DNA of 49,829 bases from a virus: positions 1 through 49,829 of IMG/VR virus record IMGVR_UViG_3300014911_000010, one strand, 5' to 3'. Of this stretch, positions 185 through 12,399 are shown in pieces. The position numbers and the translations under genes were made by a program. Position 1 is the first letter of the stretch; each line of letters starts with the position of its first letter. Under the pieces are notes generated by a model. It searched no databases, was not told where the DNA came from, and was given only the letters and a program-made list of their open reading frames with translations.

Positions 185-361
185 ATGGAAGCGACAACGA
201 AGGATAAGATAATCTACACAATCATCATAATAACCGCTATAATAGTCATATACGCAGGGCTGTTTTTAGCCTTAAACTGGCTTGACAGCAACAATGGCTG
301 TTATTGCGGATACGATATTTACCTGCCCCCTGAAAGGTGCTGGGGGGTTTGCAATGAATAA
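185..361 (+). CDS. small single-span membrane protein (58 residues)
   Basis: ATG at 185, TAA at 359-361. After a short charged start (MEATTKDK) comes one strongly hydrophobic segment, about residues 9-31 (IIYTIIIITAIIVIYAGLFL), then a short outside/inside tail rich in cysteine (four Cys in the last 20 residues, including CYCGY and a final C-x-x-x-C). That layout fits a bitopic membrane protein. It lies directly before a holin-like gene and a terminator, so a role in lysis (spanin-like or holin accessory) is possible, but no family motif proves it. Confidence 0.6.
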   Translation: MEATTKDKIIYTIIIITAIIVIYAGLFLALNWLDSNNGCYCGYDIYLPPERCWGVCNE

Positions 362-362
362 A

Positions 363-391
363 GGTCGTAAACTAAAACATAATTAAAAACC
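363..391 (+). promoter_or_regulatory. GGTCG leader box of the holin-like gene
   Basis: GGTCG at 363-367 starts 30 bases before the ATG at 393. ACC at 389-391 can pair with GGT, as in the hairpin-bearing copies, but the inner stem here is weak. This is the compact version of the element, with A-rich sequence between box and start codon. Confidence 0.4.
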
Positions 392-1321: not shown

Positions 1322-1349
1322 TTGACAACTCTTTTAAATCTGCTATAAT
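1322..1349 (+). promoter_or_regulatory. tandem early promoter P4 (sigma-70 type, consensus)
   Basis: TTGACA (1322-1327), 16-base spacer, TATAAT (1344-1349) with extended -10 TG. It is nearest to the first early gene; a transcript would begin near 1356 and carry the GGTCG hairpin leader at 1368. Confidence 0.8.
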
Positions 1350-1367
1350 ATAATAAGAATTAAAAAA

Positions 1368-1396
1368 GGTCGCAACAAGGGAAAGTTGTAAAAACC
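1368..1396 (+). promoter_or_regulatory. GGTCG hairpin leader, copy with stem CAAC/GTTG
   Basis: GGTCG (1368-1372), stem CAAC (1373-1376), loop AAGGGAAA, stem GTTG (1385-1388), then TAAAAACC, whose ACC can pair with the initial GGT. It starts about 12 bases after the likely transcription start of P4 and 61 bases before ATG 1429. The same plan recurs at 1665, 1972, 2415 and 11427 with different but still paired stems. Confidence 0.6.
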
Positions 1397-1428
1397 ATTA
1401 GAGAAAAAAAAACAATCATTAAAAAATT

Positions 1429-1599
1429 ATGACTAAAGAAGAATTGTTAAAAATAGTTGATTGGTTGCAGGAAAATACAGATTTGGCAGAGAGGCTACAG
1501 GATATTCCTAACTCTGCTACTGAAAATAATCCACGAGGCGATTACGCAAGGATTGAGAGATGGTTGCTTAATAGTAGCGAGTTGGGATTTCGGGAGTAG
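1429..1599 (+). CDS. first early gene, small unknown protein (56 residues)
   Basis: ATG 1429, TAG 1597-1599. The 56-residue product begins MTKEELLKIVDWLQEN and looks like a small helical soluble protein (two amphipathic helices with an NNPRGDYARIERWLL segment). I do not recognise it. It is the first gene behind the four promoters and the hairpin leader, which argues that it is real and highly expressed early. A longer frame in another phase (1457-1708) overlaps it but has an implausible basic composition and no leader, so I reject that one. Confidence 0.6.
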   Translation: MTKEELLKIVDWLQENTDLAERLQDIPNSATENNPRGDYARIERWLLNSSELGFRE

Positions 1600-1610
1600 T
1601 TGGCTTCTGG

Positions 1611-1658
1611 CTCTCCTTCCTCGCAGGAGCAGGAGGGAGAGACGAGGGGCTAACCCTC
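1611..1658 (+). other. two stem-loops between early genes, no T-tract
   Basis: CTCTCCTTCCT (1611-1621) pairs with AGGAGGGAGAG (1631-1641): 11 bp with one G-U. Directly after it GAGGG (1644-1648) pairs with CCCTC (1654-1658). No T run follows, so this is unlikely to be a simple terminator. It could be an RNA-processing or stability element, just before the next GGTCG leader at 1665. Confidence 0.5.
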
Positions 1659-1664
1659 AAAAAA

Positions 1665-1690
1665 GGTCGCTTCAGAGAAGAAGTAAAAAC
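1665..1690 (+). promoter_or_regulatory. GGTCG hairpin leader, copy with stem CTTC/GAAG
   Basis: GGTCG (1665-1669), CTTC (1670-1673), loop AGAGAA, GAAG (1680-1683), then TAAAAACT. It starts 48 bases before ATG 1713. The loop is shorter than in the other hairpin copies, but order and tail are the same. Confidence 0.55.
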
Positions 1691-1712
1691 TCAAACAAAA
1701 ACAAATAAAGTT

Positions 1713-1964
1713 ATGAAAAAGAAAATCTACGCATTTATCTCGGATATAGTACCAGTTCTATCAAAAATTTACGGAAGCGGATATTATTATTCCCTTAACG
1801 GAGAAAGAATAAAAGATGAACACGACGATGAAGAAGTAAGATGTATTTTAGATAAGTATTTAGAAAAAGGAGACAGGGACGAGAAAAATGCAGAATGGGA
1901 GGGGAAATTAGAAGACAAGGAAATACAAAAGATGTTTTCAGAATTAGATGAGATTTTTGAATAA
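1713..1964 (+). CDS. small acidic early protein (83 residues)
   Basis: An 83-residue product, acidic especially after residue 30 (DEHDDEEV, LEKGDRDEKNAEWEG, ELDEIFE at the end). The N-terminus is hydrophobic/aromatic (IYAFISDIVPVLSKIYGSGYYYSL). Small, very acidic early phage proteins often act by binding host enzymes, but no motif here shows that. The start ATG 1713 has no Shine-Dalgarno sequence and is preceded by the GGTCG hairpin leader at 1665. Confidence 0.65.
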   Translation: MKKKIYAFISDIVPVLSKIYGSGYYYSLNGERIKDEHDDEEVRCILDKYLEKGDRDEKNAEWEGKLEDKEIQKMFSELDEIFE

Positions 1965-1971
1965 AACAAAA

Positions 1972-2000
1972 GGTCGGCTCAAGGAAAAGAGCATAAAACC
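1972..2000 (+). promoter_or_regulatory. GGTCG hairpin leader, copy with stem GCTC/GAGC
   Basis: GGTCG (1972-1976), GCTC (1977-1980), loop AAGGAAAA, GAGC (1989-1992), then ATAAAACC, whose ACC can pair with GGT. It starts 53 bases before ATG 2025. This is one of three copies with exactly the AAGGAAAA loop. Confidence 0.6.
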
Positions 2001-2024
2001 AAAAAGAACAAATAAAATAAAAAT

Positions 2025-2402
2025 ATGAAGTTTAAATACATACTTTTAGGAGAAGGAGTGGCGAAAACTGAAAATGGCTTCTCTGGGAAAGGAAATTGGG
2101 ATTTGTATAAGTGTTTTGTGAAGAATGAAAATGGATATGGAGAATTTTTCATTAACCTTAACAGGAAGACAGGGGAAGGGGAAATAAAAATGAAAGATAC
2201 AGATTATTCTGATTTTCTTAGTAGAGAATTTGCGAATGAGATGGCTGGAATTACAGACGAAATTGAAAGAATGGAGAGAGAAGAAAGGAAATATGATGTC
2301 CCTGCTTGTATCAGAAAAGGAATTAAACTAGATGAGGATGTTAATGATTGGGCTGAGATGCACGGAGCAATTCAGAATGAAGATGGAGAATGGGAGGTGT
2401 AG
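2025..2402 (+). CDS. unknown early protein (125 residues)
   Basis: The first half (MKFKYILLGEGVAKTENGFS to about residue 60) looks like a small beta-rich domain; the second half is helical and charged (EIERMEREERKYD). I do not recognise the family. It has the same leader arrangement as the genes before it, with no Shine-Dalgarno sequence at ATG 2025, and is followed by another hairpin leader. Confidence 0.65.
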   Translation: MKFKYILLGEGVAKTENGFSGKGNWDLYKCFVKNENGYGEFFINLNRKTGEGEIKMKDTDYSDFLSREFANEMAGITDEIERMEREERKYDVPACIRKGIKLDEDVNDWAEMHGAIQNEDGEWEV

Positions 2403-2414
2403 TTCTTAAAAAAC

Positions 2415-2449
2415 ACAAGAAGGAAAACTTGTAAAAACCAAAAAGGTCG
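2415..2449 (+). promoter_or_regulatory. hairpin leader ACAAG/CTTGT followed by GGTCG box
   Basis: ACAAG (2415-2419), loop AAGGAAAA (2420-2427), CTTGT (2428-2432), then AAAAACC, and only then GGTCG (2445-2449). In the other hairpin copies the box precedes the stem, so this copy has the parts in another order, or the box belongs to the next unit. Confidence 0.55.
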
Positions 2450-2457
2450 GATTAAAA

Positions 2458-2513
2458 ATGAGATGCAGTGATAGGGCTATCAGTTTGGGGCATCTCATTC
2501 TGGTAGCTCTATC
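2458..2513 (+). other. structured segment, two competing helices at a gene start
   Basis: ATGAGATGC (2458-2466) pairs perfectly with GCATCTCAT (2490-2498). Within its loop TGATAG/CTATCA (2469-2482) form a small hairpin. The same GATAGGGCTATC (2470-2481) can instead pair with GGTAGCTCTATC (2502-2513) over 12 bp with two G-U pairs. The two long helices cross, so they form a pseudoknot or exclude each other. The first candidate ATG (2458) is the 5' arm of the first helix. Confidence 0.45.
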
Positions 2514-2937
2514 ATTTGCCAAAGTTATGGCTTATTTTCAAGTAAAATATAAAAACAGGAAAAAATGGCAGCAGATTGACAGGTATAAATTATCGGAAGA
2601 TTTGTTTCAGTGGTATAAAAATATGGAAGATACGGAAGAGGCAATCAGGGATATTGAAAAAGGAGAAATCGCAGAAACAGCAAGAGGTATTTATAGAAGA
2701 GACCCCACAGAATCAAAGATTAATCACACATTGACAATTATTCAAGAAAGATTGAAATCAAGAGAAAAAGATTGGAAGGAATATGTTGAAAGATACAACA
2801 AAGGTAAGCTGGATTTGAGGTGGATGAAAAAAGAATTCCCAGAAATTGTAGAGATGCTTGGAAGATTAAAACGAAAGGATGTCTGGAGATATGGTTATAT
2901 CCCAGCTGCCATTATATTTGGAAGGTTTATGAAATAG
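2458..2937 (+). CDS. unknown early protein (159 residues, or 136 from ATG 2527)
   Basis: The frame opens at ATG 2458, but the first 23 codons coincide with the structured segment above. ATG 2527 (MAYFQVKYKNRKKWQQ) is an equally good or better start. From there the protein is mostly helical and charged, with a long probable coiled segment (ERLKSREKDWKEYVERY) and an aromatic, weakly hydrophobic C-terminus. I do not recognise it. The GGTCG box at 2445 is 13 bases from the first ATG and 82 from the second; neither is the usual spacing. Confidence 0.65.
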   Translation: MRCSDRAISLGHLILVALSFAKVMAYFQVKYKNRKKWQQIDRYKLSEDLFQWYKNMEDTEEAIRDIEKGEIAETARGIYRRDPTESKINHTLTIIQERLKSREKDWKEYVERYNKGKLDLRWMKKEFPEIVEMLGRLKRKDVWRYGYIPAAIIFGRFMK

Positions 2938-2998
2938 CGTAAGGCTCCTGCTCTTTCGTCCTTTCTCACAGGTTAATGTAGTAAAGGGCAAAATCAAA

Positions 2999-3003
2999 GG
3001 TCG
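2999..3003 (+). promoter_or_regulatory. GGTCG leader box, compact form
   Basis: AAAGGTCG with GGTCG at 2999-3003, starting 29 bases before ATG 3028. Only A-rich sequence lies between; there is no hairpin and no Shine-Dalgarno sequence. Confidence 0.45.
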
Positions 3004-3027
3004 CAAAAATAATAGAAATAAAGAATT

Positions 3028-3342
3028 ATGACATTAAGACAAGCATTAGAAGCAGTTATCAAGGAAAGCAATAACGAATATGCCAAAACCTATGCTGACG
3101 CTGCTTTAAGAATGGGAAATGCTACAGAAGGGGAAATAGTATCTGGACAAACCTATAGCAAGGTATTAAATAAAGTTATTCCTGTAATAGGAATTAAACA
3201 TAAGCCAACTGGAAAGATGATGGTAGGAGAAGAAATGAGAGTTCAGTTGTTATATGTTTTGTCTAATCTTAATCACTGGCGAGGAGAAAGAGCAAGAGAA
3301 GTAAAAAAGGTATTGAAAGAATATATTAAAAGGTCGGATTAA
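3028..3342 (+). CDS. conserved-looking phage protein of unknown function (104 residues)
   Basis: A helical 104-residue protein with a tryptophan/arginine segment near the end (GEEMRVQLLYVLSNLNHWRG, then EREVKKVLKEY-like residues). I recall similar short proteins in other phages' early regions, but no function. It follows a compact GGTCG box and is followed by another at 3332, which lies within its last codons and serves the next gene. Confidence 0.65.
   Translation: MTLRQALEAVIKESNNEYAKTYADAALRMGNATEGEIVSGQTYSKVLNKVIPVIGIKHKPTGKMMVGEEMRVQLLYVLSNLNHWRGERAREVKKVLKEYIKRSD
3332..3336 (+). promoter_or_regulatory. GGTCG leader box, compact form
   Basis: GGTCG at 3332-3336 overlaps the end of the previous gene and starts 29 bases before ATG 3361, the same spacing as the box at 2999. 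Confidence 0.45.
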
Positions 3343-3360
3343 AATGTTGAAATAAAAATT

Positions 3361-3822
3361 ATGACAAGAGGAACATTTTATTTATTCCTAAACGATAAGG
3401 TGATTGAAAGTTGCGAGTTTAATGGCGATATGTATGGAAGCCCAAAAGATAGCCAAACATTACAAAGAGTAGGGAATTATAGATTAGCAGTGAGTAAACT
3501 AAAGGAAGTTAAGGACAGAATGAGTTTTGAAGAAAAGATTAGAGAATTTGATAGGGTAGCAGAGTTTAATTATCAGGATGAGGAAGGAAATTATTTCAGA
3601 TTTTACGAGCATCCATTGAAAAGGTTTTTGATGAACAGAAGCAATGAGGTTGATATGACTAGGAAGCATTACTTTGAGTTGTTTTTCAGCGATTATATCT
3701 ACATCAAGAACTTAAGTGGGAAAGATTTAAGGGTGAGAGAATACAATAATAAAAACATAGCAGTAATCCCAAATGGAAAAATCGCAACTTTTTACTTCGG
3801 AGAATTGATTGAAACTATATAA
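3361..3822 (+). CDS. unknown early protein (153 residues)
   Basis: A soluble mixed alpha/beta protein beginning MTRGTFYLFLNDKVIESCEF, with an aromatic centre (YFELFFSDYIYIKNL) and a beta-rich end. No motif I know. ATG 3361 has no Shine-Dalgarno sequence. The next gene begins three bases after its stop. Confidence 0.65.
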   Translation: MTRGTFYLFLNDKVIESCEFNGDMYGSPKDSQTLQRVGNYRLAVSKLKEVKDRMSFEEKIREFDRVAEFNYQDEEGNYFRFYEHPLKRFLMNRSNEVDMTRKHYFELFFSDYIYIKNLSGKDLRVREYNNKNIAVIPNGKIATFYFGELIETI

Positions 3823-3824
3823 AT

Positions 3825-4046
3825 ATGCTGAGTGAACGAGAAATTCAATCAATAAGAGCAATTCAGAGCGAGATTAAAAAATACGGAGGCGTTAAACAGG
3901 GAAAGATAGTTGAGATTATTAAAGCGAACTCGTTGAGTAAGGTTGAGGCGGATAGGGTTCTGAACCAGGTTGGGCTCACCTGTCCGCCTCTAAAAAGCTA
4001 TGTATTTGCTCATATCAGCCCGACGACATATAAAACATCACCTTGA
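3825..4046 (+). CDS. small possible helix-turn-helix protein with odd C-terminus (73 residues)
   Basis: Residues 1-50 (MLSEREIQSIRAIQSEIKKY, then GKIVEIIKANSLSKVEADRVL) have the helix pattern of a small winged-helix or helix-turn-helix protein. The last 23 residues (CPPLKSYVFAHISPTTYKTS) do not look like a continuation of that fold. They begin exactly where the DNA carries a strong inverted repeat (3945-3990), so the gene may have been interrupted or extended by an inserted structured element. Confidence 0.5.
   Translation: MLSEREIQSIRAIQSEIKKYGGVKQGKIVEIIKANSLSKVEADRVLNQVGLTCPPLKSYVFAHISPTTYKTSP
3945..3990 (+). other. 46-base three-way-junction-like inverted repeat
   Basis: GAGGCGGA (3945-3952) pairs perfectly with TCCGCCTC (3983-3990). 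Inside are GGTT/AACC (3956-3966) and CAGGT/ACCTG (3966-3970 with 3978-3982, 7-base loop), the latter stacked directly on the outer stem. It is followed by TAAAAAG, not a T-tract, so it is not a typical terminator. It lies within the 3' part of the 73-residue frame. Confidence 0.5.
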
Positions 4047-4086
4047 CCCAGAAAAGTTCAACACGGGCAAATATAGAAGCATAAAA

Positions 4087-4113
4087 GGTCATTTCAAACT
4101 AATGTCTATAACC
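4087..4113 (+). promoter_or_regulatory. GGTCA leader, hairpin CATT/AATG
   Basis: GGT (4087-4089), CATT (4090-4093), loop TCAAACT, AATG (4101-4104), TCTATA, ACC (4111-4113). It starts 31 bases before ATG 4118. A divergent member of the GGTCG family in which the outer GGT/ACC pairing is kept. Confidence 0.4.
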
Positions 4114-4117
4114 AAAT

Positions 4118-4735
4118 ATGTCTTATACAATAGAATATAACCGAAAAGTGTATATTGATAAAGAGAATGATAGCTTTGAACCAGATTATCTTTTACTTAT
4201 TAAACAGGGAGATAGTAATGTGTATGACCCTAAAACTGGACTAAGAGATAGAAGCTGGGATTTAGTAGCCTATGGCTGGGAGTATCAGTTATGGTATGTT
4301 ATTGGAGAAAGGGGAGGAGCAACAGAGGGTGGTGGTTTACAGCGGGGAGTTGGCTGGCATGGAACAGAATACTGGAAAATAGAGGATTATATTGCTCTTT
4401 ACAGAAAAGCAATTAAAAATGCTAAACCGATTGAGAAGGTTTTAGATGATTTTGAAATTCACGCTGTTATTAGAATAGTAGATAAAAACAAGCCAAAGAC
4501 TGAGGATGATGAAGGGGAGTATAAATATGATAATTATGATATGAAGAGGGTTCAGGAAATTCTAAAGAAATACCAGTTTTTTGAAGATGGATACGAGTAT
4601 TATTACCCCCAGATTAAAAGATGGAAAAGAAAGGTAGAAACGTTAGAGGAGTTTAAGGACTATCTGGAGCACTTGCCAAAGGGAAAGTATGGAAGCGGAT
4701 TATGGACAAACCTCTGGTTCTATCCTAAAAAATAA
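4118..4735 (+). CDS. unknown early protein (205 residues)
   Basis: A 205-residue soluble protein rich in Trp, Tyr and Gly in the first half (SWDLVAYGWEYQLWYVIGE, then GGATEGGGLQRG) and with a charged second half (KPKTEDDEGEYKYDNYD). It is probably a globular alpha/beta protein. I do not recognise it. It is one of the larger genes of the early block, preceded by the GGTCA leader at 4087 and followed by a small hairpin at 4753. Confidence 0.7.
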   Translation: MSYTIEYNRKVYIDKENDSFEPDYLLLIKQGDSNVYDPKTGLRDRSWDLVAYGWEYQLWYVIGERGGATEGGGLQRGVGWHGTEYWKIEDYIALYRKAIKNAKPIEKVLDDFEIHAVIRIVDKNKPKTEDDEGEYKYDNYDMKRVQEILKKYQFFEDGYEYYYPQIKRWKRKVETLEEFKDYLEHLPKGKYGSGLWTNLWFYPKK

Positions 4736-4752
4736 AATAGAGAAATCTTATG

Positions 4753-4772
4753 ATTAAACGGCTTCGGTTAAT
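4753..4772 (+). other. small hairpin after an early gene
   Basis: ATTAA (4753-4757) pairs with TTAAT (4768-4772) around ACGGCTTCGG, which can close further on a C(UUCG)G-like tetraloop. No T-tract follows. It may be an mRNA 3' stability hairpin; weak evidence. Confidence 0.35.
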
Positions 4773-4831
4773 ATAATTTATCAACCTTACCCTCAAAAGA
4801 CGCTCACAAGGGCAATAACGCTATAAAAAAA

Positions 4832-4836
4832 GGTCG
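4832..4836 (+). promoter_or_regulatory. GGTCG leader box, compact form
   Basis: AAAAAGGTCG with GGTCG at 4832-4836, starting 28 bases before ATG 4860. The bases between are A/T-rich; no Shine-Dalgarno sequence is present. Confidence 0.45.
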
Positions 4837-4859
4837 GGTATAAATAAAAATAAAGTAAT

Positions 4860-5174
4860 ATGTCAGTAAGAGCATACCCAATTAAAAAAATAGAGCACGG
4901 TGGCGAGATATTTAATCTCTGGCACGATGAATACTTTAGGGATTTGCTTGATAGGGAAGGATTGCTGGAACAATTAAATATGGACGGATACGGAATTTTA
5001 GGAATATGCGAAAGTCATTTAGAGGCGATTGAAAATCAGATAGCAATGGATGTTAAGGGAAGCACGGGAGATATTAACTGGGAAGAGGTTAAAAGAGCAA
5101 GGGAGATAATTGAGGACATTAGAGAGGAAATGAAAAGACAAAAAACCGATTGTATTGATTTTTACTGCTTTTAG
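4860..5174 (+). CDS. unknown early protein (104 residues)
   Basis: Begins MSVRAYPIKKIEHGGEIFNL and ends with three aromatic/cysteine residues (DCIDFYCF). The second half is helical and charged (EEVKRAREIIEDIREEM). Not recognised. It is the last gene before the internal promoter at 5190. Confidence 0.65.
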   Translation: MSVRAYPIKKIEHGGEIFNLWHDEYFRDLLDREGLLEQLNMDGYGILGICESHLEAIENQIAMDVKGSTGDINWEEVKRAREIIEDIREEMKRQKTDCIDFYCF

Positions 5175-5189
5175 TGATTTTTTCAACTC

Positions 5190-5218
5190 TTGACAAGTAT
5201 TTCCTAATCGTGTATACT
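5190..5218 (+). promoter_or_regulatory. sigma-70 type promoter with near-leaderless transcript
   Basis: TTGACA (5190-5195), 17-base spacer, TATACT (5213-5218). A start about 7 bases after the -10 would fall near 5225, only about 3 bases before ATG 5228. It decides the start of the next gene, because the longer frame from 5174 would begin upstream of the promoter. Confidence 0.7.
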
Positions 5219-5227
5219 ATAGGAAGT

Positions 5228-5461
5228 ATGAACAAAATAATAGAGGAAATAAATCCTGAAAGGTGGTATAGACCAAGAGAAATTGCTCAGAATAACTGGA
5301 TTTGTAATTCAAAAGGCAAAGGAGATTATTATCTGGTTCTAAAATTAATCAGAAAAAACAGGTTGAGAGCAAGAGATTTTGGATTAGGGAAAACTCCGTA
5401 TTATCTTGTCTGTGGGAGCGAGATAATAAGGTATATTGAATCTTTTTATCCCACAAACTAA
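5228..5461 (+). CDS. small probable DNA-binding protein, helix-turn-helix/excisionase-like (77 residues)
   Basis: From ATG 5228 the product is 77 residues. RWYRPREIAQNNWI followed by a charged helix and GKTPYYLVCGSEIIRYIES has the layout of MerR/Xis-type winged-helix proteins: an N-terminal 'choose your helix' segment, then a basic wing. That would suit a regulator or excisionase, but the match is by pattern only. I chose this start over 5174 because a good promoter lies between them. GGAAG 2 bases before the ATG is a weak Shine-Dalgarno sequence that would sit at the very 5' end of the RNA. Confidence 0.6.
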   Translation: MNKIIEEINPERWYRPREIAQNNWICNSKGKGDYYLVLKLIRKNRLRARDFGLGKTPYYLVCGSEIIRYIESFYPTN

Positions 5462-5462
5462 A

Positions 5463-5486
5463 GGTCGCAAAATAATTGTTAGGTCG
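5463..5486 (+). promoter_or_regulatory. double GGTCG box
   Basis: Two copies of AGGTCGCAAAA, with GGTCG at 5463-5467 and 5482-5486, start 34 and 15 bases before ATG 5497. A similar doubled box occurs at 39445-39462 before the tail tube gene. Confidence 0.45.
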
Positions 5487-5496
5487 CAAAAAAAAT

Positions 5497-6300
5497 ATGG
5501 ATAAACAAGTTGCTCGTAAGGCTACTGTTCAAAGTGTTATTCAGAGAATAAATGAGATTAGGGATGAAATGGAATTGGCTTATGACAAGGAACGGTATGT
5601 TAAAGTTATTAAGGAACTTCAACGCTTTTTGGAAATTAAAGAACTGTCTGATGCAAAAATAGCAGAAATCAAAGAATTACGCTCTGTTTACAAGACAGCA
5701 TTAAGTTTGCAGATTCCAGTTAGTGGAATAACTGTTCTGGGTGGAAAATTGTATATTAACACTATTGGATTACTTAATAAAACCTTTCAGGTTGCCAAAA
5801 ATCACAATGGTGTTAAAAGGATTGAAGCATATCCACTGGAACAAAAAGGCGAAAAATTTGTGTCTCTGGAGGTAGAAGCCCCTGCATTTTTTGTAGGTAT
5901 TGTTGAGTTCGGCGACGGAAGTATCTTTAAGGATATAGGAGAAGCAAGTGCAACCAATATTAGGATGTCAAGTATCAGACCGTTCCTTAACAGCATGGCT
6001 GCTAGAAGAGCCACTAATCGGGCAATGAGGTTGGCTACTGGTATAGGATTAACCTCTGTTGAGGAAATAGAAAATGGAGGAGAGGTAATACCTGAAGAGG
6101 TGAAAATGGACGTGCTTACCACAAAGGAGATGCAGCAAATTGCAGAGTTGTTGCAAGAGATTGGACAAGCAAAAGACCTGAAAGAGTTAAACAAAATTAA
6201 ACAGAAAATATCTGGACTGAAGGATAAACTTAATGAGCAGCAGCTAAGATTTTTAGGCAAGGCGTTTAGGAATAAAGAAATAGAGTATGGAGTATTTTAG
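5497..6300 (+). CDS. probable phage recombination protein (single-strand annealing type), 267 residues
   Basis: The central part, about residues 75-200, has the pattern GKLYINTIGLLNKTF, a beta-rich stretch with VEFGDGSIFKDIGEAS, then RPFLNSMAARRATNRAMRLA. The order 'G-D/E-A-S ... x-R-A-x-x-R-A-x-R-x-A-x-G' recalls proteins that many phages carry next to a RecB-like exonuclease and that are thought to act in single-strand annealing or binding. Its overlap with the nuclease gene at 6287 supports that role. The C-terminus (about 200-267) is helical. I start at ATG 5497, not the upstream TTG at 5476, because the TTG falls between the doubled GGTCG boxes. The function is inferred, not proven. Confidence 0.5.
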   Translation: MDKQVARKATVQSVIQRINEIRDEMELAYDKERYVKVIKELQRFLEIKELSDAKIAEIKELRSVYKTALSLQIPVSGITVLGGKLYINTIGLLNKTFQVAKNHNGVKRIEAYPLEQKGEKFVSLEVEAPAFFVGIVEFGDGSIFKDIGEASATNIRMSSIRPFLNSMAARRATNRAMRLATGIGLTSVEEIENGGEVIPEEVKMDVLTTKEMQQIAELLQEIGQAKDLKELNKIKQKISGLKDKLNEQQLRFLGKAFRNKEIEYGVF

Positions 6301-7021
6301 TTTTTCACGGTTGAAGTTGTACGAAGAATGCCCGATGAAGTATTACTACCAGTATGTTTTGAAAATAAAGGGACCGAAATCGCTTGCAATGGCTTTTGGT
6401 GGAGCTATTCACTCAGCATTAGAAGTATTTTATAGAGAGGATAATCCAGATAAAGCAGAGAAGGTGTTTATTGAAGAGTTAACTTCAGCAGATGTTAGGC
6501 TAAAGAACAAAGAATCAATAGAAAAAGAAGGTAAAGTTGGGTTGAATATGCTCCACCATTATTTTAATGGTCCTGACAGACCTTATCTAAATGTTGATAG
6601 AAAAAAGGTGGAATATAAATTCAATGTAAACCTTGATTGCCCTCTCGGTGGTAAAAAAATAGACATCCCCGTATCTGGAATAATGGATTTAATAACTACA
6701 GATGGATTTATAGTTGACCACAAAGTTACGACTAGTATTTGGAGAGAAGAAGACATTGATTCTGATATGCAGGCTACTGTCTATTGGATGGCTTATGAAA
6801 AACTATTTGGTAAAGAACCGAAAGGATTTATCTATAATTTTCTTGTTAAACGAGTTAAGAAACCGCTGTTTGATGCTCAACCTACAATAAGGGATATGGG
6901 ACAGAAGATGTATCTTGTTGAGTATGCTCAGGCTATTATCCAGAAGATTAGAAAAGGAGAATTTCCTAAAAAGATAGGTAAGCATTGTAGGTATTGTCCT
7001 TATAGGTTTATGTGCGAGTAG
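6287..7021 (+). CDS. RecB/Cas4-like PD-(D/E)XK exonuclease with iron-sulfur cysteines (244 residues)
   Basis: The protein shows the standard order of the family: FSFSRLKLYEECP near the start, GGAIHSALE (His42), GIMDL (catalytic Asp), then VDHKV (D-x-K of the PD-(D/E)XK core) and a following Q-A-T-V-Y helix. One cysteine at residue 15 and three at 234, 237 and 243 (HCRYCPYRFMC) form the four-cysteine Fe-S cluster seen in AddB/Cas4-type nucleases. It would resect DNA 5' to 3' for recombination. It overlaps the probable annealing protein by 14 bases, a common exonuclease/annealase pair. Length is normal for the family. Confidence 0.85.
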   Translation: MEYFSFSRLKLYEECPMKYYYQYVLKIKGPKSLAMAFGGAIHSALEVFYREDNPDKAEKVFIEELTSADVRLKNKESIEKEGKVGLNMLHHYFNGPDRPYLNVDRKKVEYKFNVNLDCPLGGKKIDIPVSGIMDLITTDGFIVDHKVTTSIWREEDIDSDMQATVYWMAYEKLFGKEPKGFIYNFLVKRVKKPLFDAQPTIRDMGQKMYLVEYAQAIIQKIRKGEFPKKIGKHCRYCPYRFMCE

Positions 7022-7030
7022 TTTCTTCGT

Positions 7031-7147
7031 ATTAGTAGTAATATATTATATATATTTATATTATATTATATAAATTAAGTGGCGAAAAGGTCCAAAATTA
7101 ACACATTATCCACTACTTATCCACTACTTATCCACCACTTATCCACA
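7031..7147 (+). other. candidate replication origin: AT-rich tract plus four 11-bp DnaA-box-like iterons
   Basis: A tract of almost pure A/T (about 7041-7078) is followed by four direct repeats TTATCCACN at 7106-7114, 7117-7125, 7128-7136 and 7139-7147, exactly 11 bp apart. The last is the consensus DnaA box TTATCCACA. An AT-rich unwinding tract beside boxes phased on one helical turn is the usual layout of a bacterial-type origin. TAG repeats (TAGTAGTAA, 7033-7041) lie on the far side of the tract. Confidence 0.65.
7106..7147 (+). repeat. four tandem 11-bp iterons (TTATCCACtAC)
   Basis: The repeat unit is TTATCCAC plus three bases (TAC, TAC, CAC, then A-TA). The exact 11-bp period places all boxes on one face of the helix. 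See the origin entry for interpretation. Confidence 0.9.
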
Positions 7148-7152
7148 TAACT

Positions 7153-7608
7153 ATGAGAAACGAGATTAAAGTTATATTTCTTCTTGTTCTTTTAGGCGGA
7201 TTAACTGGTTATGCTATGTATATTGCTATTAATTCTTTTCTGGCTTTAGTAGATAGTCCAGCACCAATTGTCAAATTAGAACCCAAGCACGAAACAACGG
7301 CAGAAATTATAGCAAGGGTAGCAAAAGAACAAGGTCTGAACCCTACTATTACTTTGATGATTGCCGATATGGGTAGCAAACTAAACAGATATGCAATCCA
7401 TATCAACAAAGATGGAACTTACGATAGAGGAGTATTTATGTATAATTCTTATCATTACAGGCATATTCCAGATGAATGTGCTTTTGATCCCGAGTGTGCG
7501 ACAAAAGAGTTCGCCACGGAGGTCAAGAAAGGTCATTTGAAAAACTGGGTAGAGGTGAGAGGCTTTAGGTTGGAAGTTTTAGAGAAATATTTGATAGAGG
7601 AGAAATGA
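7153..7608 (+). CDS. membrane-anchored lysozyme-like (SLT-type) protein, 151 residues
   Basis: An N-terminal membrane segment (about residues 7-32, VIFLLVLLGGLTGYAMYIAI) is followed by a domain with the lysozyme-like order of soluble lytic transglycosylases: IIARVAKEQGLNPTITLMIA, then IHINKDGTYDRGVFMYNSYH and an AFDPECATKEFA segment. The motif that normally carries the catalytic Glu (E-S-x) reads DMGS here, so the usual Glu appears to be Asp. It could cut peptidoglycan from a membrane anchor, or be a catalytically altered relative. It starts right after the iterons and overlaps the next gene by ATGA. Confidence 0.6.
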   Translation: MRNEIKVIFLLVLLGGLTGYAMYIAINSFLALVDSPAPIVKLEPKHETTAEIIARVAKEQGLNPTITLMIADMGSKLNRYAIHINKDGTYDRGVFMYNSYHYRHIPDECAFDPECATKEFATEVKKGHLKNWVEVRGFRLEVLEKYLIEEK

Positions 7609-7772
7609 AAAGATTACTCCTTTACCTCTTGAGATGGCAATTATCAACCCCAACATTATGGTTAGTAATTCACTTATTAGGAGCAGGATTATGGCAAACG
7701 GTTATAGCAAACTTGGTAGGAGGATTGATATTTTACTGGGTGGATAGGTGGATTTTTACCTCACCGAGTTAA
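7605..7772 (+). CDS. small membrane protein (55 residues)
   Basis: ATG 7605 overlaps the stop of the previous gene (ATGA). The 55 residues hold two hydrophobic helices (about 15-31 and 33-48, VIANLVGGLIFYWVDRWIF). The pattern of Trp-flanked helices with WVDRWIF resembles short GtrA-like membrane proteins found in phages, but it is too short to be a full GtrA. Translational coupling to the SLT-like gene suggests that they work together at the membrane. Confidence 0.6.
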   Translation: MKRLLLYLLRWQLSTPTLWLVIHLLGAGLWQTVIANLVGGLIFYWVDRWIFTSPS

Positions 7773-7833
7773 TATAGAAAAGGTCATTTGTATATTAACG
7801 GAGAAACATAGGAATTGGAAAAAAGATAAAATT

Positions 7834-7989
7834 ATGTCCTTCAATTTTCATCTTGACTCAGTAAGTATAGCGTTGATTATATTTTATGCCCTTGTAATTG
7901 GTTTTAATATCGGTTATCAGATTGGTTATTTTAGAGCCCATCGGGAGATAAAAGAACTTGTAGCCAAACAATATGACAAAAAAAATTGA
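7834..7989 (+). CDS. small single-span membrane protein (51 residues)
   Basis: ATG 7834, TGA 7987-7989. One hydrophobic helix (about residues 10-32, VSIALIIFYALVIGFNIGYQ) and a charged tail (RAHREIKELVAKQYDKKN). A GGTCA box at 7782 lies 52 bases upstream. Its last codons overlap the start of the next gene in another frame. Confidence 0.5.
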   Translation: MSFNFHLDSVSIALIIFYALVIGFNIGYQIGYFRAHREIKELVAKQYDKKN

Positions 7990-8137
7990 ATTCCTTTGCT
8001 ATTTTATCGCTTCTTGGAATAGTTTAATAATGGCTAATTTAAGAAATGACCCAGTTTGGTTTTGGACTTGGATTGTTCTAACGGTAGCGAATTTAATAGC
8101 AGCATCCTATATTCTTTTATCAAGTCAAGATTTATGA
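7973..8137 (+). CDS. small membrane protein (54 residues)
   Basis: ATG 7973, TGA 8135-8137. Begins MTKKIEFLCYF and has a Trp-rich hydrophobic C-terminal helix (about 29-50, WFWTWIVLTVANLIAASYI). The first 20 bases of the gene are repeated exactly at the start of the next gene (8134-8153), so the two share the opening MTKKIE. Function unknown. Confidence 0.5.
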   Translation: MTKKIEFLCYFIASWNSLIMANLRNDPVWFWTWIVLTVANLIAASYILLSSQDL

Positions 8138-8153
8138 CAAAAAAAATTGAATT
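7973..8153 (+). repeat. 20-bp direct repeat at two consecutive start codons
   Basis: ATGACAAAAAAAATTGAATT occurs at 7973-7992 and 8134-8153. In both places it is the start of a gene and overlaps the end of the gene before. This suggests that a gene start was copied, perhaps by recombination at a favoured junction. Confidence 0.85.
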
Positions 8154-8568
8154 ACCAAAAAGAGAGATTAAGTTTAGGATTTGGGATAAAGATAATAAGA
8201 AAATGTTTTACAAGGGAGTAAGTCCTGATAGGATTTATATGGGATTAGATGGAAAACTTTACAATGGATTGAATGGACAAGATTTTTCTGATAATTTTAT
8301 TTTAATGCAATACACTGGCTTACACGATAGAAACGGAAAAGAAGTGTACGAAGGCGATATAGTGAGAATAACTGGTGAGTATGTTAATCCGATAACTAAT
8401 TCCTCTTATCCAATTCATAGAGTACAAATGGTTTGTTGGGAAAGTAAGAAAAAAGTAAGGGGAAATTTATTTGCAGGTTTTATAGGTTTGAATTTTGGTA
8501 TTGCTCACACTATTAAAATTGAGGTTATAGGCAATATTTTTGAAAATCCTGAGTTATTAGAGAAATAA
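8134..8568 (+). CDS. YopX-family phage protein (144 residues)
   Basis: REIKFRIWDKDNKKMFY near the N-terminus and LMQYTGLHDRNGKEVYEGDI in the middle are the hallmark blocks of the YopX family, which is widespread in phages. Its molecular role is not known. I start at ATG 8134 (MTKKIELPKREIKF) and not at the in-frame ATG 8056, because this start matches the family's usual N-terminus and overlaps the previous stop as ATGA. Confidence 0.85.
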   Translation: MTKKIELPKREIKFRIWDKDNKKMFYKGVSPDRIYMGLDGKLYNGLNGQDFSDNFILMQYTGLHDRNGKEVYEGDIVRITGEYVNPITNSSYPIHRVQMVCWESKKKVRGNLFAGFIGLNFGIAHTIKIEVIGNIFENPELLEK

Positions 8569-8574
8569 ACAATC

Positions 8575-8684
8575 CCCGCTCGGCAGATTTCTGTCGGGAG
8601 AAAGTGCTGGAGGTATCTTCCAGACCGCCTACCAGAACAAAAACTTCAGTGAGGGCGCAACTGGAGTATACAATGGCTGGTAGG
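8575..8684 (+). other. multi-stem structured segment before a gene start
   Basis: CGGCAG/CTGTCG (8581-8586 with 8591-8596), CTGGAGG/CTTCCAG (8607-8613 with 8617-8623, 3-base loop), and an outer helix CCTACCAG/CTGGTAGG (8628-8635 with 8677-8684) enclosing ACTTCAGT/ACTGGAGT (8643-8650 with 8660-8667, one G-U). The outer helix begins 1 base after the ATG at 8673, so folding would hide the gene start. No T-tract follows. Confidence 0.5.
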
Positions 8685-8852
8685 GGATTAAAAAATATGG
8701 AAAAAGAAAAGAAAATTAAATTACCAAAGGATTATTTCAAATCCTTGAATTTTGAAATAAACTGGGATTGGGACTTATTTTTCAAAATAAACAGATTAGC
8801 GATTTTACAGGGATTGAAAAAAACCTATGACCAAAAAAGAAAAGAAAATTAA
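8673..8852 (+). CDS. small basic protein of the MAxR junction series (59 residues)
   Basis: From ATG 8673 the product begins MAGRGLKNMEKEKKIKLPKD, matching in style the N-termini of later genes in this block (MAKRQPLK, MAERKPMR, MAKKQPLK, MAGRKSMK). An internal ATG at 8697 is another possible start. The remainder is a short alpha-helical protein (FEINWDWDLFFKINRLAIL). The longer frame from GTG 8604 runs through the structured segment and is less likely. Overlaps the next gene by 26 bases. Function unknown. Confidence 0.5.
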   Translation: MAGRGLKNMEKEKKIKLPKDYFKSLNFEINWDWDLFFKINRLAILQGLKKTYDQKRKEN

Positions 8853-9147
8853 GAATTGGGAAAAAGAGTTTGAGAAAGAGTTTATTTGGCCAAACAAGAA
8901 AGGTGAAATTTGCCAACTTTATAAAGACAATCCAAGAGAATTTGTAAAGAAACTTAAATCTTTTATTCGTCAACTTTTAAATCAAGCCTACCAAGAAGGT
9001 TTTGAGGCAGGACAACACGAAGCAACTTCCCAATACAAGAGAGATATGGAAGACGCTTATGAGAAAGGAAGAAGAGATGTGAAGGAAGAGATGAAAGAAA
9101 AATTTAAGAAATATAATAGATTACTGAAAGAAATAGATAAATTATAA
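8827..9147 (+). CDS. charged coiled-coil protein (106 residues)
   Basis: Highly charged and helical (NWEKEFEKEFIWPNKKGE, then YEKGRRDVKEEMKEKFKKY). About residues 25-106 look like one long helix or coiled coil. The segment LLNQAYQEGFEAGQHEA resembles short phage and host helical adaptor proteins, but I cannot assign a function. It begins inside the previous gene. Confidence 0.6.
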   Translation: MTKKEKKIKNWEKEFEKEFIWPNKKGEICQLYKDNPREFVKKLKSFIRQLLNQAYQEGFEAGQHEATSQYKRDMEDAYEKGRRDVKEEMKEKFKKYNRLLKEIDKL

Positions 9148-9169
9148 TCTATCTGAACTAAATAAATCT

Positions 9170-9454
9170 ATGCCAAATCAGAACATCAAAAAAGAAATAA
9201 AAAAGCACCTCTATATGATACTAAACCTTGCAGGCGTTAAAAAAAGCATCGCTGATAAAGTTGTCCCAGTAGGAACAGAAAGAATAATAGACGATGTGGT
9301 AAGAGAGGCGTTTGAGCGGTTTATAGAGGGAACGAAACCCTATAAAGCAGGCGAAGTTGTTCCTGTAGACGATGTAAGAGAAGGGGATGGTATTAAGAAG
9401 TGTCTTAAAAAACTTGACCAAAAACAACAACAATGGCTAAAAGACAACCTCTAA
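9170..9454 (+). CDS. paralogue 1 of a small helical family (94 residues)
   Basis: The order 'basic helix, ERIIDDVVREAFERFIEGTK, linker, C-terminal QQQWLKDNL' is shared with the 143-residue protein at 9781 (IDKIVELFKNSIQRFIEETT and AKWLEENL), so the two look like diverged copies. Its last codons (CAATGGCTAAAAGACAACCT) are also the start of the next gene in another frame. Function unknown. Confidence 0.6.
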   Translation: MPNQNIKKEIKKHLYMILNLAGVKKSIADKVVPVGTERIIDDVVREAFERFIEGTKPYKAGEVVPVDDVREGDGIKKCLKKLDQKQQQWLKDNL

Positions 9455-9621
9455 AAAAAGTTGAAACAGGAAGAATATGTTGGGGATGTGGAGAACCAAT
9501 TTATTACAATCCTGAGACGGATAAGTATATAGAGCCTGTTGACTATGAGATTATAAGAGATGTATATTATCATTCTCGGTGCAGGAAGAAAGCGTTGAAG
9601 AAAATTTTGAAGATTAAGTAA
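9433..9621 (+). CDS. small zinc-binding protein (62 residues)
   Basis: Begins MAKRQPLKK, overlapping the previous gene by 22 bases. C-W-G-C (ICWGCGEPIYY) and, about 30 residues later, H-S-R-C (YYHSRCRKKALKK) can form a CCHC-type zinc site, followed by a basic tail. This suggests nucleic-acid or protein binding. Confidence 0.65.
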   Translation: MAKRQPLKKVETGRICWGCGEPIYYNPETDKYIEPVDYEIIRDVYYHSRCRKKALKKILKIK

Positions 9622-9622
9622 A

Positions 9623-9802
9623 ATGGCTGAAAGGAAACCTATGAGAAACAAAATAGATTGGGAAAAATGGAAAAGATTTCTTAATTGGGTTAATCAATTA
9701 AGCCCTTGGAATTTATGGACACCCCAAACTTGGCATAAGGAAGATATTAGAAAAAGAAAATTGAATTTAAAAGTAAGACAATGGCTAAAAAACAACCTCT
9801 AA
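9623..9802 (+). CDS. small Trp-rich basic protein (59 residues)
   Basis: ATG 9623, TAA 9800-9802; too short to be seen by length filters. It begins MAERKPMRNKIDWEKWKRFL and ends VRQWLKNNL. Both ends match the repeated junction of this block: its start codes KWLKGNL-stop in another frame, and its end codes MAKKQPLK of the next gene. Rich in Trp and Lys/Arg. Function unknown. Confidence 0.6.
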   Translation: MAERKPMRNKIDWEKWKRFLNWVNQLSPWNLWTPQTWHKEDIRKRKLNLKVRQWLKNNL

Positions 9803-10212
9803 AAAACAAAATAAGAACAGAAATAATAAAAATAGTCAGCGTCCCGCCAAAAAGAAAAGGAGATACAGGTTATCTGAAGTTGACGGATGAAGAGATTGAT
9901 AAGATAGTGGAGTTATTTAAAAATAGTATTCAACGCTTTATAGAGGAAACAACCAAAGAATTAAGAGAAGAATTAGCAGAATTAGAACATAAACAATTAG
10001 AAAGTTGGACAAGATGTATTTTGGAAGAGTGGGTTAGGTGTGAAGGTTTTGCGGATGGTTTTCTTTCTCGGTTGGAAAGGAAGTGGACTGAAAACTGGAA
10101 ACCTTATTCAGAATTACCTGAAGAAGATAAAGATAAAAGTAGAGTGTGGGCGAATAAAGTATTAGGAAAACTTAAACAAAACCAAGCAAAATGGCTGGAA
10201 GAAAATCTATGA
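9781..10212 (+). CDS. paralogue 2 of the small helical family (143 residues)
   Basis: Begins MAKKQPLKNKIRTEIIKIV and carries IDKIVELFKNSIQRFIEETT, like the 94-residue protein at 9170, plus an extra acidic/aromatic middle section (LESWTRCILEEWVRCEGFAD). It ends AKWLEENL, and that end is the start of the next gene in another frame (MAGRKSMK). Mostly helical; function unknown. Confidence 0.65.
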   Translation: MAKKQPLKNKIRTEIIKIVSVPPKRKGDTGYLKLTDEEIDKIVELFKNSIQRFIEETTKELREELAELEHKQLESWTRCILEEWVRCEGFADGFLSRLERKWTENWKPYSELPEEDKDKSRVWANKVLGKLKQNQAKWLEENL

Positions 10213-10583
10213 AAAAAGAAAAGAAAAAGAAGAGTATATTATCGTGGGAAGAGGTACAGGCTTTAAAAAGAGAGATTGGTTTATTGATGAAAAATGGAAT
10301 TATTCCAGGAGATAGCCGAAGTTTTGGTAAGAAATTTGTGTCTATGGAATTTTTATTGAGTTACAAAAAACAAAAAGAGATGTGGATAAAGATTATTGAT
10401 TTTTTAAAAAGATATGCCAAAATGCCTAAAAAACAACCTATAACCAAACAAAAAATAATAAATCAAATAAAAAAGAAAATCAGAAAAAGGTTAAAGGAAT
10501 TAGCTTTTGAAGACGGAAATGTTGACGAGAATTGGCAGGTGTTGTATAAAAAATTAGTAGAGGATATAGACAGTGGATTATGA
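10191..10583 (+). CDS. basic protein, apparent in-frame fusion of two junction-series units (130 residues)
   Basis: The first unit starts MAGRKSMKKEKKKKSILSWE. At residue 78 a second start-like motif, MPKKQPITKQKIINQIKKK, appears in the same frame (ATG 10422), so two units that elsewhere overlap out of frame are here fused or could also be started internally. The second half resembles the N-terminal basic helix of the paralogues at 9170 and 9781. Function unknown. Confidence 0.55.
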   Translation: MAGRKSMKKEKKKKSILSWEEVQALKREIGLLMKNGIIPGDSRSFGKKFVSMEFLLSYKKQKEMWIKIIDFLKRYAKMPKKQPITKQKIINQIKKKIRKRLKELAFEDGNVDENWQVLYKKLVEDIDSGL

Positions 10584-10930
10584 GGAAGGGGCAACAAGGC
10601 AATAATATAAACATTTTTCTCTCTAAAATTGAAAGAAACATTAAGTGTTTACTGGAGGAAAAACCAGAGTTAAGAAGTGTAAAGAAACGCAAGGAGTTGA
10701 TTTGGGAGTATTGGAAAAGGTACGATGGATTGTCTCAGGTGGTTACTAAAGAGATGTGGCTTTATCGTCTAACTGGTGTAGAAAACATAACAAGGTCTGC
10801 TCGCAAAGTCCAGGCTAAATTTAAAAAATTGGATGACCAGGATAGATATTTGCGAGCAAGGGATATGGGGGAGTATTACAAAAGCAAAGAACAGAAACTA
10901 AAAGAATTCAGCGAAACCTATCTACGGTAA
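10580..10930 (+). CDS. unknown phage protein (116 residues)
   Basis: ATG 10580 overlaps the previous stop as ATGA. The helical sequence includes KRKELIWEYWKRYDGL and ENITRSARKVQAKFKKL. The 'ENITR-x-x-R' block is one I associate with phage proteins encoded next to HNH or packaging genes, but I cannot give a function. It is followed 10 bases later by the HNH gene. Confidence 0.6.
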   Translation: MRKGQQGNNINIFLSKIERNIKCLLEEKPELRSVKKRKELIWEYWKRYDGLSQVVTKEMWLYRLTGVENITRSARKVQAKFKKLDDQDRYLRARDMGEYYKSKEQKLKEFSETYLR

Positions 10931-10939
10931 TTTAATTAG

Positions 10940-11245
10940 ATGGTAAATGAAAGGACAAAAATAGATGTCTATTTTAGAGATAAGGAGCGTTGTGTTATTT
11001 GTGGCAATGGTTCCAGGCTTGAGCCCGTTCCTCATCACTGCTTTTTTAGGAGTGAGTATTTTGATAGGGACAGGGATGGAGGTTGGAACTTGGTAACGAT
11101 TTGTATAGATTGCCACAGAAAAATTCATAGAGGAGATAGAAACCTAAACTGCTTTTGTAAAAGGCTTGCCCTTAGTAGATACAGTGGAGATAAAAAAGAG
11201 AAATTATTGGAAATAGCAAGAAGAAGGAAGTGCTTTGAGAGCTGA
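10940..11245 (+). CDS. HNH endonuclease (101 residues)
   Basis: RCVICGNGSRLEPVPHHCFF gives the first zinc pair (Cys18, Cys21) and the HH of the HNH core (His32-His33). GGWNLVTICIDCHRKIH gives the Asn (50), second zinc pair (Cys55, Cys58) and final His (59/63). This is a complete, minimal HNH nuclease. Free-standing phage HNH proteins often help terminase cut DNA or act as homing enzymes. Its last codons lie in the left arm of the long helix at 11227. Confidence 0.85.
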   Translation: MVNERTKIDVYFRDKERCVICGNGSRLEPVPHHCFFRSEYFDRDRDGGWNLVTICIDCHRKIHRGDRNLNCFCKRLALSRYSGDKKEKLLEIARRRKCFES

Positions 11246-11357
11246 GAGAATAGGCAGAAGTAAAAAAAGGTGTCCACAGCACCGTGCGACCGCTTCTGAA
11301 AAAACTGCTTCTGTGGATAAAGGCAGTGTTCCTTTCTCTCAGCTTTCAGGGCACTTC
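11227..11357 (+). ncRNA. candidate structured RNA with a 24-bp closing helix
   Basis: Bases 11227-11250 pair with 11334-11357 over 24 bp without a bulge, three of the pairs being G-U. Inside, CAGAAG (11255-11260) pairs with CTTCTG (11293-11298) around GGTG/CACC (11269-11272 with 11280-11283), and ACTGC (11304-11308) pairs with GCAGT (11323-11327). That gives a three-way junction of about 131 bases. A second CTTCTG (11308-11313) and CTGTGG (11311-11316, complementary to CCACAG 11274-11279) allow another fold. It covers the end of the HNH gene and ends just before the promoter at 11374. No known RNA family fits, and there is no T-tract. Confidence 0.5.
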
Positions 11358-11373
11358 TGTATTTTTCTTACTC

Positions 11374-11402
11374 TTGACAACCCTTTTTAACTATGCTATA
11401 AT
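11374..11402 (+). promoter_or_regulatory. sigma-70 type promoter, fifth copy of the tandem-promoter repeat
   Basis: TTGACA (11374-11379), 17-base spacer, TATAAT (11397-11402) with extended -10 TG. About 36 bases match the promoters at 1120-1294, including the spacer ACCCTTTTTAACTATGC. It probably drives the long gene string from 11491. Confidence 0.88.
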
Positions 11403-11426
11403 CTCAAAAACTAAAAAAATCAAAAA

Positions 11427-11466
11427 GGTTGGGAGAAGGAAAACTCCTTAAAACCAAAAAAGGTCG
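11427..11466 (+). promoter_or_regulatory. GGTTG hairpin leader GGAG/CTCC plus GGTCG box
   Basis: GGTTG (11427-11431), GGAG (11432-11435), loop AAGGAAAA, CTCC (11444-11447), TTAAAACC, then a separate GGTCG box at 11462-11466 starting 29 bases before ATG 11491. It holds both forms of the element in one leader behind a consensus promoter. Confidence 0.6.
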
Positions 11467-11490: not shown

Positions 11491-12399
11491 ATGAGGTTCT
11501 CAATTTCTTTATTAAAATCAGCCCTCCAGAAAGCAGTAAGAAGAAATAAAACAGAAAAAGCAGTAAGAGTTGCAAAATCTCTACTGGAAGAGGATGAAAT
11601 GCAATTTTTGAGAAGATGGATGGTAATAATTTTAGAGGACGGATTGCTTCATTACAATTATGATAGATTGAAGGAGATGGTAAAAAAGATTTCTAAAAAA
11701 GGAAACAGGTTGACGATAGAAGAGAAAAATTTAATTATCAATCAGGTGGCTGAAGTGGCGAAAAGCGAATGGAGGGATAATTGGGTGGATGAGAATGAGG
11801 GAGAATGGAACAATCAGGAAGAAAAGGAGGCTGCAGAGTATGTCAAAGAGCATTTTCAGGATATTTTTAAACTTCCCAAAAAAGAGCAGGAACTGGTATT
11901 GGCAGTAAAATTCAGAGCATCAATAGGTGGGATGAAGGGAGATATAGTGATGCTGAACCATTATTTTAATATCTGGGCAAAGAGATTTCTCAAAAAAGAG
12001 TGGAATGCTGAAAGATTAAGAAAGTATTTTCCAACCTTTCAATTAGAATACGAAAGAATTGAAAGAGCAACTGTAAGAGACATTTTAATAGAGGCGGTTG
12101 ATTTCCATTGCTCTCCTCTCCTTCCAATTTTAATGAGAAAGCCAGAGGTGAAGAAAATTTGTAGGCAGGAATATCCAAAAGAAGATGTAGAAGAAACGCT
12201 AAAATGGGTAATCTGGGCACAAAGAAGTAGTGTAGATGTGAAAAAAGAAATAGGAACAGGGAAAGTAAGAGAATGGTATGGTAGAGGATGGGGAAAGGAT
12301 AGAGAAGAGGAAAAGGATAAAAGAATTTTTAATTACCTAAAAAGCGAAATTGATAGTATAGGGCAATGGTTCCTCAGAAAACAGCTGGAAAAATCGTAA
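11491..12399 (+). CDS. conserved helical protein, RarA/clamp-loader-like motif (302 residues)
   Basis: The N-terminus, SLLKSALQKAVRRNKTEKAV followed by LRRWMVIILED, resembles the helical C-terminal segment of RarA/MgsA-type ATPases and some clamp-loader subunits (LQKxIRRG...LLRRLxIIAxED). No ATP-binding P-loop is visible, so it is not an ATPase itself. The rest is charged and helical. It is the first gene behind the strong promoter and hairpin leader at 11374. Homologues in other phages are likely, but I cannot give a function. Confidence 0.55.
   Translation: MRFSISLLKSALQKAVRRNKTEKAVRVAKSLLEEDEMQFLRRWMVIILEDGLLHYNYDRLKEMVKKISKKGNRLTIEEKNLIINQVAEVAKSEWRDNWVDENEGEWNNQEEKEAAEYVKEHFQDIFKLPKKEQELVLAVKFRASIGGMKGDIVMLNHYFNIWAKRFLKKEWNAERLRKYFPTFQLEYERIERATVRDILIEAVDFHCSPLLPILMRKPEVKKICRQEYPKEDVEETLKWVIWAQRSSVDVKKEIGTGKVREWYGRGWGKDREEEKDKRIFNYLKSEIDSIGQWFLRKQLEKS

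Follow-up and report, generated by a model that had tools for sequence, protein, structure and literature searches.

A covarying phage hairpin and a leader motif shared with Patescibacteria that lack the anti-Shine-Dalgarno sequence: a candidate translation-initiation leader

Introduction

Why would one viral genome carry a series of short leaders whose hairpin stems differ in their letters while the loop stays nearly the same? Five such leaders lie in a viral DNA sequence of 49,829 nucleotides (nt) (IMG/VR record IMGVR_UViG_3300014911_000010, positions 1 to 49,829), which was analyzed at full length and is called the window here. The original prediction, made from the letters of this sequence, held that the five hairpins are a selected RNA structure and that the GGA in their loops is the kind of site bound by CsrA-type proteins. 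Here, we report that the structural part of that reading is strongly supported, and that it missed a larger constant element, AAAGGTCG, leaders that carry this element without any hairpin, and host-like bacteria that share the motif. Taken together, the sequence comparisons favor, with a probability of roughly 0.55, the reading that the motif AAAGGUCG is a translation-initiation leader of hosts without an anti-Shine-Dalgarno (anti-SD) sequence and of their phages, in which the hairpin would be a looped-out phage module.

Results

The five hairpins were found at the predicted places, with stems of 4 to 5 base pairs (bp) whose letters covary, as follows.

1366 to 1396, plus strand: leader copy 1; AAGGTCG, stem CAAC/GTTG (1373-1376/1385-1388), loop AAGGGAAA, tail TAAAAACC; start codon at 1429
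1663 to 1691, plus strand: leader copy 2; AAGGTCG, stem CTTC/GAAG (1670-1673/1680-1683), loop AGAGAA, tail TAAAAACTC; start codon at 1713
1970 to 2000, plus strand: leader copy 3; AAGGTCG, stem GCTC/GAGC (1977-1980/1989-1992), loop AAGGAAAA, tail ATAAAACC; start codon at 2025
2409 to 2439, plus strand: leader copy 4; stem ACAAG/CTTGT (2415-2419/2428-2432), loop AAGGAAAA, tail AAAAACC; GGTCG not ahead of the stem
11425 to 11455, plus strand: leader copy 5; AAGGTTG, stem GGAG/CTCC (11432-11435/11444-11447), loop AAGGAAAA, tail TTAAAACC

The whole hairpins span 1373-1388, 1670-1683, 1977-1992, 2415-2432, and 11432-11447. The loop had been described as AAGGAAAA in three copies and AAGGGAAA in one, which holds; the remaining copy (1670) has the loop AGAGAA. 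In copy 4 (2415), AAAGGTCG comes after the hairpin, at 2442, not before it.

When the 3′ arms were exchanged among the five copies, all 20 of 20 positions paired in a single arrangement out of 120, namely the real one. Across the seven distinct stems of the window phage and related phages, 28 of 28 pairs were kept (p = 0.0005). Pair counts were taken from an ungapped alignment of 8 rows, since MAFFT, when applied to the full set of 11 hairpins, put the arms in the wrong place. In the 8-row alignment, the inner helix was 100% paired and each of its four pairs was altered on both sides, the loop was conserved while the stem letters differed, and the whole-structure covariation score was 0.81 (versus 0.20 for shuffled rows). 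The outer GGU:ACC helix, which had also been predicted, was present in the minimum-energy fold of three copies (1366, 1970, and 11425); with 76% of its cells paired, it is weaker evidence than the inner helix. Folding energies of single copies were only modestly better than those of shuffled sequences (z from −0.4 to −4.4, the last for copy 3 at 1970), and the case for structure therefore rests on covariation. Because copies from related phages with different stems still pair, comparison among the copies strongly supports the hairpin as a selected RNA structure.

Further copies of the hairpin were found in six other phages, which brings the distinct stems to seven in total. The pattern used to scan IMG/VR fixed the motif, loop, and tail and left both stem arms free, so that it was blind to pairing; a stem of at least 4 bp was present in 7 of 7 matches at motif-rich phage places versus 1 of 20 elsewhere (Fisher p = 9e-6). 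A covariance model, the check that the original prediction had proposed, matched copies beyond its training set in two phages (G009 and G011). Within the window, the model recovered copy 1 with an E value of 7e-8 (a copy within the training set) and copy 2 weakly (E value of 0.11), and it further supports copies 3, 4, and 5. Over 0.8 Mb of host-clade DNA it returned nothing convincing (best E value of 0.04). One more phage (G010) has a 3-bp version of the hairpin at the leader position. The genes behind the hairpin are unrelated, in phages with little protein similarity; judged by sequence, they look like small early genes in the window, scaffold-like acidic proteins in G008 and G011, and an ATPase-like protein in G007. 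A near search of the phage collection gave no match, and a search for relatives of the gene at 7153 gained no new phages. Against Rfam, the window had no match at the gathering score, and a relaxed threshold gave only a chance-level match at 1300-2600.

The constant element reaches well beyond the hairpins. AAAGGTCG occurs 19 times in the window, always on the plus strand, where 0.8 occurrences are expected. The motif usually lies 30 to 40 nt ahead of a start codon, whether or not a hairpin is present, and often directly follows a stop codon. Its places include the following.

148 to 155, plus strand: AAAGGTCG leader without hairpin; gene at 185
360 to 367, plus strand: AAAGGTCG leader without hairpin; gene at 393
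2442 to 2449, plus strand: AAAGGTCG after copy 4, ahead of a pseudoknot-like leader and ATG 2527
2996 to 3003, plus strand: AAAGGTCG leader without hairpin; gene at 3028
3329 to 3336, plus strand: AAAGGTCG leader without hairpin; gene at 3361
4829 to 4836, plus strand: AAAGGTCG leader without hairpin; gene at 4860
5460 to 5467, plus strand: AAAGGTCG leader without hairpin; gene at 5497
11459 to 11466, plus strand: AAAGGTCG between copy 5 and start codon 11491
31580 to 31587, plus strand: AAAGGTCG with another hairpin (GAGGACTT/AAGTCCTC) between it and the head gene at 31644
34545 to 34552, plus strand: AAAGGTCG leader; gene at 34578
39442 to 39462, plus strand: two AAAGGTCG copies; gene at 39485; motif kept in G001 and L259

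The same arrangement was seen in other phages. In G001, whose terminase is 68% identical, AAGGTCG occurs 18 times on one strand and 0 times on the other, mostly ahead of ATG and without the window-type hairpin. G016 and other phages whose proteins resemble those of the window little or not at all carry the motif ahead of ATGs on whichever strand holds the genes. Between −22 and −50, the 8-mer preceded 58 of 519 phage genes (versus 1 for the reversed word), and among motif variants an appreciable change was found at the last base alone (G, then A, then T). Genes with a gap of 25 to 60 nt before them carried the motif in 27 of 63 cases versus 16 of 248 for overlapping or abutting genes. Phage and host also have a start context in common, with A at −6 to −3 and T at −1. 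This set distance to AUG, together with the shared start context and the preference for nonoverlapping genes, suggests a role in translation initiation. The motif is not universal for a given gene: many orthologues of the gene at 39485, whose product is probably the major tail protein, lack it, and some have Shine-Dalgarno (SD)-like leaders. A AAAGGTCG stretch near 33045, similar to G001 and G007, was rejected as a leader since it is coding.

Overall, the median distance from motif to AUG was approximately 34 to 38 nt. Where a hairpin directly follows the motif, the median was 51 nt versus 34 nt (p = 5e-5), and subtracting the hairpin returned it to approximately 34 nt. In two other relatives (L245 and L246), the variant AAAGGTCA lies approximately 73 nt from AUG with a 41-nt hairpin between them (identified by eye), leaving approximately 32 nt. 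This variant is also found in the window at 4108 and 7782, upstream of genes at 4118 and 7834.

We then turn to the bacteria that share the motif. A scan of genome contigs gave 24 matches, and the leader-like ones all lay in Patescibacteria. In one order of this phylum, that of Candidatus Pacebacteria bin S1_Bin_METABAT__198_1 (G019) and Parcubacteria bacterium DG_74_1 (G021), the motif stands at equal spacing ahead of chromosomal genes. An AT-tailed motif pattern gave 167 matches in 60 genomes of the order (versus 49 for the reversed control) and 64 in 279 other Patescibacteria (versus 124), the latter sum leaving out five genomes of the order plus G197 and G141. Among host sites chosen by pattern alone, with an AT-rich stretch required after the motif and with all gene starts predicted, an open reading frame started downstream in 35 of 40 cases (median, 36 nt; 32 within 24 to 46 nt). 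The motif was located at −22 to −50 before 20 of 871 host genes versus 1 for the reversed word. Pilin genes are among those behind it, as are many genes whose products start with a signal-peptide-like stretch. Homologues of the gene at 39485 were found in 2 of 247 genomes of the order and in 4 of 379 across the phylum; G531, a genome within the order, carries the motif in the leader of its homologue, and in G413 the leader is SD-like. We infer that the window phage infects this order.

In these presumed hosts, the anti-SD was absent from 26 of 26 readable 16S 3′ ends, comprising 24 from the order and two from motif-rich genomes outside the order sample (G197 and G141). Ten motif-poor relatives retain it. 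The 16S genes without anti-SD (L163-L171, L184, and L220-L238) run on into a conserved 3′ extension, in which UCGACU is followed by a hairpin containing GAGAAUUCUC, next by a pseudoknot-like element, and then by GGGACAACUCUAAGAAACU and a terminator-like hairpin. By eye, the second stem of the pseudoknot-like element changes with pairing kept. AGGUCGA is matched by a conserved UCGACCUCA that lies approximately 200 nt from the 3′ end of 16S; because this stretch resembles one side of a 16S helix (h42 in our reading), the match was judged coincidental.

Several neighboring features accompany the leaders. Two perfect sigma-70-type promoters were located as follows.

1322 to 1349, plus strand: perfect sigma-70-type promoter upstream of copy 1
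11374 to 11402, plus strand: perfect sigma-70-type promoter upstream of copy 5

Near-identical promoters of the form TTGACA...TGCTATAAT are clustered four together before the first hairpin leader (1120-1349), with one before the fifth (11374-11402). Between AAAGGTCG (2442) and ATG 2527, positions 2460-2514 hold a pseudoknot-like leader in which GAGATGC/GCATCTC is accompanied by TGATAGGGC/GCTCTATCA; compared with Rfam, it had no match. The same skeleton was seen in two other phages, at L087:2653-2741 and L094:6723-6809, with other stems and a shared TGCAG.GA and TTGCC, before exonuclease-like genes. In both the window (31580-31644) and G001 (28835-28909), the head-gene leader retains AAAGGTCG or AAGGTCG together with a hairpin of another kind, GAGGACT/AGTCCTC. 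Around the terminase (12366-23325), genes resembling sugar-nucleotide epimerases/dehydrogenases and glycosyltransferases were read from sequence.

Discussion

In the reading that we favor, AAAGGUC(G) would recruit or position the 30S subunit approximately 30 to 40 nt upstream of AUG in Patescibacteria without anti-SD and in their phages. The hairpin, or elsewhere a pseudoknot or longer hairpin, usually placed between signal and AUG, would be looped out to give an effective spacing of approximately 34 nt; in addition, where GGU pairs with the ACC downstream, the signal may be masked and the gene tuned. Candidate readers of the signal are a ribosomal protein, rRNA, or another factor. Several observations weigh against this proposal. 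After subtraction of the hairpin, several leaders still have 45 to 48 nt, and one long hairpin would leave approximately 11 nt; in copy 4 the hairpin is upstream of AAAGGTCG rather than between motif and AUG; and the gene starts are predictions. The G208 lineage lacks the anti-SD and yet does not show the motif pattern. Moreover, only a few per cent of genes in the sampled host genomes carry the motif, so it cannot be a general start signal.

Other explanations account for parts of the same data. AAAGGUCG could be a processing or stability signal that sets mRNA 5′ ends as a target for cleavage or protection by an RNase or RNA-binding protein, with the hairpin as a 5′ stabilizer. The motif does often come right after a stop codon inside gene arrays, and −10-like hexamers in the hosts cluster 8 to 28 nt upstream of it, so that it lies near some 5′ ends; however, a cleavage site needs neither a fixed distance to AUG nor absence from overlapping genes, and we regard this explanation as unlikely. 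The AAGGAAAA loop could instead be an operator, the binding site through which a regulator of phage or host origin (a CsrA-like protein, a ribosomal protein, or a phage repressor) controls a group of phage genes. Such an operator would suit a conserved loop on a variable stem, a hairpin found in phages only, and GGU:ACC pairing that could mask the motif. It fits poorly with the unrelated genes behind the hairpin in dissimilar phages, and it accounts for the loop but not for AAAGGUCG in leaders that have no hairpin. GGA is indeed present in the loops AAGGAAAA (three window copies) and AAGGGAAA (one) and absent from the AGAGAA copy. With two CsrA proteins as queries, no convincing match was obtained in ten phage records and approximately 0.8 Mb from five host-clade genomes, which were partly covered; the CsrA site of the original prediction is unlikely because no CsrA was found. 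A protein operator in the wider sense, which could coexist with a role of the motif in initiation, appears quite improbable as the explanation.

Two further proposals concern where the motif is read. If AAAGGTCG were a −35-like DNA element of promoters whose leaderless transcripts begin at AUG, the 30 to 40 bp to AUG would be about right. However, the interval between motif and AUG contains no −10-like element at any fixed offset, the perfect sigma-70-type promoters at 1322 and 11374 lie upstream of the motif, and covarying hairpins in the same interval would be meaningless unless they are transcribed; we give this proposal very little credence. A displaced anti-SD is a special form of the initiation reading, in which UCGACU in the extended 16S 3′ end would pair with GGUCG in the mRNA. 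A UCGACU-like sequence follows a variable stretch past helix 45 in most 16S genes without anti-SD; relatives that retain the anti-SD showed no such sequence there. On the other hand, no enrichment was seen for AAAAGUCG, whose pairing would be no weaker; the leading AAA would be left unpaired; and the extension may be missing from the mature 16S. Such pairing therefore seems decidedly doubtful.

The way in which bacteria without an anti-SD select their start codons is still debated as a general question, and Patescibacteria make up a very large and mostly uncultured share of bacterial diversity. A motif that keeps a set distance to AUG and is common to such hosts and their phages is a concrete and testable object, one that may help predict starts in these genomes and tie phages to hosts; the hairpins amount to naturally occurring variants in the spacing of the signal. 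More broadly, and tentatively, a new start signal with sequence specificity may have arisen in Patescibacteria that lost the anti-SD, namely AAAGGUCG at approximately −35, which is not read by the classical 16S tail; the phages of these bacteria may copy it and tune individual genes with hairpins or pseudoknots placed between it and AUG.

A search of Rfam and of the open-license full-text literature found no family or paper describing the motif or a substitute start motif. Comparison is with systems that share single features. Like the SD sequence, the motif is short and purine rich, stands at a set distance before start codons, and is shared by host and phage; unlike it, the motif lies approximately 30 to 40 nt upstream rather than roughly 5 to 10, and the 16S 3′ end of the presumed hosts lacks CCUCC, any rRNA partner being putative. 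Loss of CCUCC from SD-scarce organisms, some candidate-phyla bacteria among them, has been published (PMC10783764). The anti-SD losses in that work include several Patescibacteria-type lineages, and a substitute leader motif is not described in the parts of it consulted. Bacteroidetes likewise initiate without SD, in a Kozak-like manner with an A-rich stretch before AUG and A at −3; their ribosomes, however, retain the anti-SD, and a AAAGGUCG-type motif is not reported in the sections of that study consulted (PMC6847099). The CsrA/RsmA hairpins also place GGA within the hairpin loop of an mRNA leader, whereas the loop context here is AAGGAAAA, the start site is not overlapped, and a CsrA homologue was not found. 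In genes 38 and 25 of phage T4, structure between the SD sequence and AUG shortens the spacing (PMC3014915). The putative role of the present hairpin is similar, in that RNA structure would bring an upstream signal and AUG to a working distance; the difference is that the signal here is another one, in hosts without anti-SD, and that a hairpin with constant loop and covarying stem is repeated before several genes.

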